This document shows positions 53,018-54,429 of a stretch of 62,536 bases of DNA, in pieces; position 1 is the first letter of the stretch, and each line of letters begins with the position of its first letter. The notes beneath the pieces were generated by a model. That model was given only the letters and a program-made list of their open reading frames with translations. It was not told the origin of the DNA and ran no database searches. The stretch is from a virus: IMG/VR virus record IMGVR_UViG_3300017991_000116, positions 1-62,536 of that record. One strand, given 5' to 3'. The position numbers were made by a program, and so were the translations under genes.

Positions 53018-53045
53018 AACATATCACATGGGCTGTGATTGTCAA
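53018..53045 (-). promoter_or_regulatory. Promoter of the TTGACA-TATGTT subfamily
   Basis: TTGACA (53040-53045), 16-nt spacer containing CCCATGTGA, TATGTT (53018-53023). Nearly the same core as at 47785-47812. Confidence 0.75.
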
Positions 53046-53054
53046 GAAGAATCG

Positions 53055-53333
53055 TCACTGGGACGGCCGGATGCTCTCGAGCACTTCGCGGCGGAAGCGG
53101 CGGAAGGTGCGGGTCGCCTTCTTGTTGAGGAGCTCGTTCGCTCGAGGGAAGACGTACCACTCGTGCAAGGCAGTGACCGCGTCCCCGAAGCGTTCGGTGA
53201 GCTCGGGGCCTTGCGAGTCGATGCCCCACCGGATGACGAAGTCCTTGCCGTCCAGACAGAGTTGATCTTTGGTGATGCCGGGGGAGCCGTCAGGGGTGAC
53301 AGCGCGGTGCTCGAGAAGGACGCGCAGGGGCAT
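53055..53333 (-). CDS. Small hypothetical protein
   Basis: 92 residues, ATG at 53333 overlapping the upstream stop (TGATG). Begins MPLRVLLEHRAVTPDG; ends with a basic helical segment (KKATRTFRRFRREVLESIR). Function unknown. Possibly co-transcribed with the gene at 53333-53683. Confidence 0.5.
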   Translation of the reverse strand: MPLRVLLEHRAVTPDGSPGITKDQLCLDGKDFVIRWGIDSQGPELTERFGDAVTALHEWYVFPRANELLNKKATRTFRRFRREVLESIRPSQ

Positions 53334-53683
53334 CAGTTCTCTTTCACGATGATGGCGTGGTCGGGCTCGCCGTCCCACACCGCGTAGACGCCGCACTTGA
53401 GCAACGTCTCGACGATGATCTTGCCGCACTGCTCGTAGGGCAAGCCGATGACCCCGTTCGGGGTGGGGACCGGGCCGAAGCAGATGGGGTAGCCACCGTC
53501 AGGCGTCCGGTTCTTGACCGCGTCCTCCGTGAAGAACACGCACCCTCGGACCTGGTAGCCCTTCTGGGTGATTTCGACGGCACGCTCACTGATGGCAGCG
53601 GTCGCGTCGTTGTGTCCGACCTTGAGGCCGGGACGGGCGATGAAGCCGTGGTTGCGTAGTCGGTCGAATGCTGCCTTGATCAT
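53333..53683 (-). CDS. Conserved hypothetical protein
   Basis: 116 residues, GAAAGAGAC precedes the ATG at 53683. The pattern (LRNHGFIARPGLKVGHNDATAAI, then VFFTEDAV, YEQCGKIIVETLLKCG, HAIIV) resembles bacterial hypothetical proteins that carry a small alpha/beta domain with a buried Cys. It is the first gene downstream of the tRNA-like structured region, so it may be read from a transcript starting there. Confidence 0.5.
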   Translation of the reverse strand: MIKAAFDRLRNHGFIARPGLKVGHNDATAAISERAVEITQKGYQVRGCVFFTEDAVKNRTPDGGYPICFGPVPTPNGVIGLPYEQCGKIIVETLLKCGVYAVWDGEPDHAIIVKEN

Positions 53684-53704
53684 GTCTCTTTCCTCTCTTG
53701 GTCT

Positions 53705-53841
53705 CGCAGCTTCAGGGAGGCGCCTCAGCAGCTACCGCGTGGGCGTCCCCTACGGTTCTCCCCTGGATCCTTAGACCCTCTAGGTTGAGATTCCCGAGGG
53801 TCGGAGAGCAAGGCTACTCGAGGCGTCTCCCTCAAGCTGCG
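53705..53841 (-). repeat. Long inverted repeat with inner hairpin
   Basis: Arms 53705-53726 and 53820-53841 pair over 22 bp with one C-C mismatch and one G-U pair. The 93-nt interior contains a second perfect 7-bp hairpin (53774-53780 with 53796-53802). It begins only 4 nt after the tRNA-like CCA end. Could be a structured non-coding RNA, processing signal or recombination remnant. Confidence 0.65.
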
Positions 53842-53845
53842 ACTG

Positions 53846-53941
53846 TGGTGGCCCGAGCAGGAATCGAACCTGCTTGTGGTCGTCCGTCCAGCAAATTCAG
53901 TGGGCACCGAGGCTCGACTTCCAACCGACCGACTCCGGACC
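53846..53941 (-). tRNA. tRNA-like gene, 3' half clear, anticodon arm unresolved
   Basis: The minus strand shows a perfect T arm (GCAGG TTCGATT CCTGC, 53857-53873), acceptor strand TCGGGCC, a discriminator A and an encoded CCA (53846-53848). GGTCCGG at 53935-53941 can pair with the acceptor strand (two G-U pairs), and TCGG/TCGA can form a D stem. The 39 nt where anticodon and variable arms should be do not form a canonical 5-bp stem with 7-nt loop. It may be an atypical class II tRNA, a decayed tRNA, or an attachment-site-like tRNA 3' fragment. Confidence 0.5.
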
Positions 53942-53946
53942 GTCGT

Positions 53947-54028
53947 GGGTGGTGGGATCTTGGTTTCGCCGGCCTTATGGAGCGTAGCTCCGTGTGGCCT
54001 CCACCGGGGTTCCCTGACGCTGCCACCC
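53947..54028 (-). other. GC-rich nested stem structure
   Basis: Nested complementary arms: GGGTGG/CCACCC (54023-54028 with 53947-53952), GGCC/GGCC (53996-53999 with 53971-53974) and GGAGC/GCTCC (53979-53983 with 53987-53991, 3-nt loop). This is the region just 5' of the tRNA-like element on the same strand. Confidence 0.4.
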
Positions 54029-54134
54029 AGGCAACGACCTCTCCGAGGTCCGGGGCTTTTTTCGCGGGTGCTACCCCGCTTCTTCATGAGGATCTCGCCA
54101 CCCTCACTAGCCGGCAGCAACCGGCGCGTCCTTG

Positions 54135-54395
54135 TCAGTGACACTCGCACGAGCCTCCCGAGGCGACCATCCTGCCCGCCTTGCGCATGTGCTTGCAAGG
54201 CTTGCGGGCGATGGGGCTCTTCTTCTGGAACCGCCAGTTGGGGCACGTGCAGTAGAAGACCCCGTCCGCGCCGCGTCGGACTTGGTAGACCTTGTTGGGG
54301 TTGGTGAAGGAGGGGATCTCTGCGATGAGTGCTTTTTCCATGGTGGACTCCTTGCCTGACATCGGGGATTCGATCTCTTCAGGCATCGTCTTCAT
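54135..54395 (-). CDS. Small SWIM-type zinc-finger protein
   Basis: 86 residues if started at the ATG at 54395, which is 6 nt after a -10 box; an in-frame ATG at 54341 with AGGAG upstream gives 68 residues. The C-terminal half holds CTCPNW...KPCKHMRKAG, a CxCx(n)CxH SWIM finger like the one at 46783-47154, followed by CECH at the end. Probably nucleic-acid or protein binding. Confidence 0.65.
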   Translation of the reverse strand: MKTMPEEIESPMSGKESTMEKALIAEIPSFTNPNKVYQVRRGADGVFYCTCPNWRFQKKSPIARKPCKHMRKAGRMVASGGSCECH

Positions 54396-54401
54396 GTTTA
54401 G

Positions 54402-54429
54402 AAGATAACACACTGCCAGGGATTGTCAA
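54402..54429 (-). promoter_or_regulatory. Promoter with leaderless geometry
   Basis: TTGACA (54424-54429), 16-nt spacer, TATCTT (54402-54407), CTAAAC, ATG (54395). The TGA of the upstream gene (54426) lies in the -35 box. Confidence 0.7.

Follow-up and report, generated by a model that had tools for sequence, protein, structure and literature searches.

The window, that is, the whole stretch of DNA analysed here, is a 62,536-nt virus record and represents a fragment of an uncultured T4-like phage. Its major capsid and portal proteins match T4-type families, with no annotated phage reaching 60% identity to them. The minus strand is the reading direction of all the genes worked with here. Relatives were gathered by means of the major capsid protein, and six of them were compared gene by gene; gene order is common to the window and to the relatives G001, G005, and G007 over much of the contig, and the stretch at about 46–58 kb is accessory, variable, and mostly private to this phage. 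Inside this accessory stretch, a gap of 451 nt, the second longest non-coding gap of the contig, houses a tRNA-like T arm and a long hairpin. The features of the gap and its flanks, in the direction of reading, are as follows:

54402–54429, minus strand: sigma-70-type promoter TTGACA-16-TATCTT, a member of the TTGACAATC promoter family
54135–54413, minus strand: upstream gene, encoding a small protein with weak SWIM zinc-finger similarity (E 0.017, below the cut-off)
54044–54053, minus strand: CCGGACCTCG, predicted to pair with CGACGGTCCGG at 53933–53943 and to compete with the acceptor stem in long RNA
53935–53941, minus strand: putative 5′ acceptor strand GGTCCGG, with 7 of 7 pairs (two of them G-U) to TCGGGCC; chance of 8% when taken alone
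53914–53932, minus strand: D-arm-like hairpin TCGG-TCGGTTGGAAG-TCGA, found by direct search and disfavoured by the energy model
53874–53913, minus strand: non-canonical 40-nt middle, which has no anticodon arm and holds a TCGGT-GCCC-ACTGA hairpin
53846–53873, minus strand: T arm, acceptor 3′ strand, discriminator A, and encoded CCA (GCAGG-TTCGATT-CCTGC-TCGGGCC-A-CCA)
53704–53842, minus strand: branched 139-nt hairpin, whose closing stem is the 23-nt inverted repeat (two mismatches)
53333–53683, minus strand: downstream gene, encoding a DUF6891 protein, with a ribosome-binding-like AGAGGAAAGAG and an ATG, both no more than about 20 nt from the hairpin

The promoter at 54429–54402 stands before the upstream (SWIM-like) gene, on the same strand as the T arm, and a transcript starting there would be expected to cross the gap into the DUF6891 gene. 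Near-identical promoters, TTGACAATC...TGTGATATGTT, are numerous on the minus strand of the contig and precede other minus-strand genes, for instance at 53045–53018, 52260–52233, 48909–48882, and 47812–47785. The sole convincing T-run terminator-like stem (54041–54062, or 54034–54062 in a wider delimitation) lies on the plus strand and is opposed to the gene direction. An open frame at 53725–54246 on the minus strand was rejected as a gene, its third-position GC (0.62) being below that of most genes here and its translation having no Pfam match.

The tRNA-like 3′ end and its body

The preliminary description had reported a perfect T arm followed by an acceptor strand and an encoded CCA, and this is borne out at 53873–53846 on the minus strand, where T arm, acceptor strand, and ACCA are faultless and the GTTCRA loop and 3′ CCA of canonical tRNAs are present. 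This is the only strict T arm with CCA in the window, and the arm persists in the folds of longer RNA, at 0.92–0.97. In simulated sequences of the same composition, a strict T arm with CCA is expected 0.01 times per window, a figure that is not decisive alone because many windows were scanned, and a chance look-alike lying beside a real hairpin would be compatible with it. Nevertheless, the T arm and CCA gain weight because they are placed in the 451-nt non-coding gap, and they lie on the coding strand together with two suitably spaced elements, a full acceptor partner and a D-like arm, whose joint chance in random sequence is 1.3%; a mere look-alike is thus regarded as improbable.

The anticodon part had been described as non-canonical, and direct search agrees, since no anticodon arm (5-bp stem, 7-nt loop, U33) with even 4 of 5 pairs could be found in the middle. 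The energy model favours an irregular long arm over the D arm, and in the folds of long RNA the upstream CCGGACCTCG takes up the 5′ acceptor strand, with loss of the acceptor stem. The 96-nt body folds no better than shuffled sequences (z −1.1). Moreover, the likeness of the 68-nt body to 202 tRNAs, most of them from relatives, is no better than that of shuffled bodies, and descent from the tRNA of a relative was accordingly rejected; the earlier suggestion of a decayed tRNA therefore stands as possible for the 3′ half and finds no support in the rest of the body. Neither a tRNA nor a tmRNA was detected by ARAGORN, and Rfam gave no match above threshold, so that two of the checks proposed at the outset have yielded no clean cloverleaf. 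Relaxed and intron-permitting ARAGORN runs returned scattered calls, all judged spurious; one was a Ser tRNA that has an intron of 222 nt and its 5′ end inside a coding gene, and another was a tagless tmRNA. The tmRNA option was rejected, ARAGORN and Rfam being negative and the low-threshold ARAGORN calls stating only 'tag not identified'. As far as can be shown, the element is tRNA-derived at its 3′ end only.

For a decoding tRNA carrying a small insert, or one with a strongly aberrant anticodon arm, a possible precedent is found in G070 (L230), where tRNA-like genes of one array (−7597, −7455, −5992, and −5857) share an insert of about 60 nt between the D and T arms, with the pattern TAAAACRCCGTTTTTC...TTGTTCG...CGAACCGACCGAG..ATGGTTATCGCC; in one of these genes the arms flanking the insert (acceptor, D, and T) are all perfect. 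These inserts could be a small intron-like or extended-anticodon family. However, no anticodon arm fits the 40-nt middle of the present element, which by eye is unlike the G070 inserts, and an interrupted decoding tRNA is considered very improbable.

The preliminary description also raised an attachment site, here taken as a copy of the 3′ end of a host tRNA. The 3′ half of a tRNA is the classical core of attP. On the other hand, neither the exact 28-mer nor the CCA-less 23-mer pattern was matched in the bacterial tRNAs of 84,980 species, no Phage_integrase domain was found in the contig (a fragment, searched for the tyrosine family), and T4-like phages are lytic. This origin is the least probable of those weighed.

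The 139-nt hairpin and its counterparts in relatives

Three nucleotides beyond the CCA begins the near-perfect inverted repeat that had been noted beside it, with arms at 53704–53726 and 53820–53842 (23 nt each) that are 91% complementary and separated by 93 nt. The adjacency claimed earlier is thus retained, the spacing being 3 nt and not 4, as the repeat had previously been started one base further in. The inverted repeat scores 17, versus no more than 14 in 20 simulated windows, and the hairpin that it closes has fold z values of −6.7 (minus strand) and −5.1 (plus strand), being the best 150-nt fold of the contig and the third among 13,259 stretches including those of relatives. The start of the DUF6891 gene lies about 20 nt beyond it. 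The hairpin was rejected as a terminator, having no T run on either strand. By contrast with these values, the nested-stem block at 53947–54028, which had been singled out as a special structure, turns out to be ordinary (z −0.9 for 53944–54066, −0.86 for 53846–54066, and −1.7 for 53929–54056), and the idea that one entity unites all of these elements is not upheld: the hairpin and the tRNA end look like two separate units.

No relatives of the locus were found via the neighbouring proteins, exact and degenerate DNA scans gave no homologue of the T arm or of the hairpin arms, and a search of 50,697 phage records yielded no close relative and no meaningful match. The arrangement itself was sought in 2.4 Mb of strand, which gave 828 T-loop/CCA candidates, and the only ones with a long hairpin immediately following the CCA are those of the window and of G007/G008. 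The hairpin-after-CCA score is 17.3 for the window and 22.9 for G007/G008, and the next candidate reaches 12.3. The second case can be given as one feature:

16030–16250 of L092, minus strand: T-loop-like hairpin, ACCA, 5 nt, long hairpin, and gene start (G007/G008)

Both elements thus present a T-loop-like hairpin with ACCA, followed by a long hairpin and then a gene, and the hairpin of G007 (z −7.2) also stands in front of a gene start. They differ in sequence and in genome position, the G007/G008 hairpin is of 98 nt, and its T arm is imperfect, with either a 9-nt loop or a U-C mismatch beside the loop. G007 and G008 are identical at the element, and in G001 a hairpin occupies the corresponding place (L076 10800–10915), with neither T loop nor CCA there. 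The juxtaposition of T loop, ACCA, and hairpin, as read from these sequences, is therefore one that recurs once and appears conserved in none of the relatives, and the chance of such a recurrence was roughly estimated at near 1% from the densities of T loops and long hairpins. The earlier proposal of an atypical tRNA or tRNA-like RNA with a partner can accordingly be kept in part, as both elements are real and adjoining and one relative has a similar pair.

Long inverted repeats in G001 (6257), G005 (149955), and G017 (71290) were tried as further counterparts and rejected for want of a T arm; the G017 repeat is located in apparent coding sequence. Another very long intergenic hairpin is located between convergent genes in G005 (L087 9955–10058).

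Stray T arms, tRNA arrays, and T4 stable RNAs

Arrays comprising as many as 44 tRNAs occur in more distant relatives, and orphan T arms are frequent there. Five array stretches, amounting to 59.5 kb, contain 16 strict T arms outside any tRNA recognised by ARAGORN or Rfam, versus 2 in 895 kb of array-free sequence, one of the two being that of the window. Orphan perfect T arms occur in L228, L230, L235, and L237, and several immediately follow an intact tRNA, which gives the impression of a duplicated 3′ end. They resemble the present element in having a perfect T arm with no recognisable tRNA and, in some cases, a CCA; they differ from it in sitting among intact tRNAs, whereas that of the window stands alone beside a long hairpin. 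Other observations in the relatives include two adjacent CTA-anticodon (amber) tRNAs in G016 (L071 3032–3188), hinting at stop-codon recoding, and an Rfam Bacteria_small_SRP match barely above the cut-off within the phage tRNA array of L230 (5750–5793, minus strand).

As stray T arms are common in the clade, they provide the strongest support for an inert relic, namely what remains of a tRNA gene, its 3′ end, after a tRNA array was rearranged, lying by accident beside an unrelated intergenic hairpin. The location in a variable accessory segment would also suit a relic, as would a body that matches the tRNAs of relatives no better than shuffled sequence does. However, T arm, acceptor, and CCA are faultless and the anticodon region is gone, a distribution of damage that point decay would not produce, and the 62-kb window contains no other tRNA. 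A relic of this kind is a serious possibility, nearly as likely as the processing or stability junction discussed below.

T4 itself offers a different precedent. The T4 stable RNAs rnaC (species 1) and rnaD (species 2) are of unknown role (PMC3014915, PMC12685909). The former (L110 909–1047) combines a perfect T arm, CCGGG-UUCGAAU-CCCGG, with a fold that is not a cloverleaf and is present in 718 phage records, from which it follows that such RNAs can be kept. The element of the window likewise has a T arm on a non-cloverleaf body and belongs to a T4-like phage, and it might therefore be a stable, trans-acting, tRNA-like regulatory RNA of this kind, processed from an operon transcript. Nevertheless, its sequence is unrelated to the T4 pair (NC_000866 70908–71171) and has no similarity to any of the phage records searched; the T4 RNAs lie directly after a tRNA array and the present locus lies outside one; rnaC ends in UACA and the present element in ACCA; and the body, as described above, folds no better than its shuffled versions. 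The length of 139 nt common to rnaC and to the hairpin of the window is probably a coincidence, because this hairpin has no T arm. A stable RNA of the T4 type is thus considered unlikely, although less so than a chance look-alike.

A possible processing or stability junction

Taken together, the locus is probably either a tRNA-derived scrap or an RNA-processing junction rather than a working tRNA. The reading tentatively put first, to which we give somewhat less than even confidence, is that a 3′ end derived from a tRNA but unable to decode adjoins an independent 139-nt hairpin, the two perhaps forming a processing or stability junction. The elements themselves, with their strand, order, and spacing, the promoter sequence, and the lack of an anticodon arm are read directly from the DNA, whereas transcription through the gap, processing, and shielding are inferred. 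In this proposal, both elements would be contained in the intercistronic part of one minus-strand operon transcript. A unit of about 96 nt, made up of the T arm, the acceptor strand, ACCA, and perhaps a remade 5′ acceptor with a D-like arm, would present its T-stem-loop and RCCA to the tRNA-processing enzymes of the host (RNase P, 3′ trimming) as a minimal tRNA-like substrate. The cut would separate the two messages, and the one for DUF6891 would then start with the hairpin, which could shield it.

This mechanism draws on the minimal requirements of bacterial RNase P, namely a T-stem-loop and RCCA. The RNase P RNA cleaves model substrates consisting of acceptor and T-stem-loop, and in substrates selected in vitro a T-stem-loop mimic, a single-stranded acceptor region, and a 3′ CCA suffice (PMC11143913). 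RNase P also cleaves mRNAs, including that of T4 gene 32. The element of the window, where a T-stem-loop is followed by ACCA, provides the T-stem-loop and RCCA of such substrates, both of the acceptor–T-stem-loop type with RCCA and of class I selected in vitro, and the placement of T arm and hairpin fits the model of an RNase P cut. It differs from these substrates in being a natural sequence, in that its acceptor helix is uncertain in long RNA, and in that its cleavage is a prediction. Moreover, the competing fold with CCGGACCTCG, as modelled, speaks against efficient cutting by RNase P. The upstream part that folds no better than shuffles, the imperfect T loop of G007, and the hairpin of G001 with neither T loop nor CCA also weigh against a processing junction, and an inert relic has the advantage of requiring no mechanism.

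A broader version of the processing junction would be a recurrent intercistronic module of the clade, in which a minimal tRNA mimic that does not decode (T arm plus ACCA), 3–5 nt, and a hairpin with arms of 24–28 nt would serve to cut operon transcripts through the tRNA-processing enzymes of the host and to cap the downstream message with a stable 5′ hairpin. This extension is considered unlikely; if true, the module would be, by analogy, a phage counterpart of the tRNA punctuation of organelles.

If the element is a relic, it would be an ordinary record of the break-up of tRNA arrays in this phage clade. If it is processed, a lytic phage would be using a tRNA mimic devoid of decoding parts to signal RNA processing. 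The element would in that case also offer a clue to the stable RNAs of T4, which have long lacked an explanation and one of which likewise carries a tRNA T arm.
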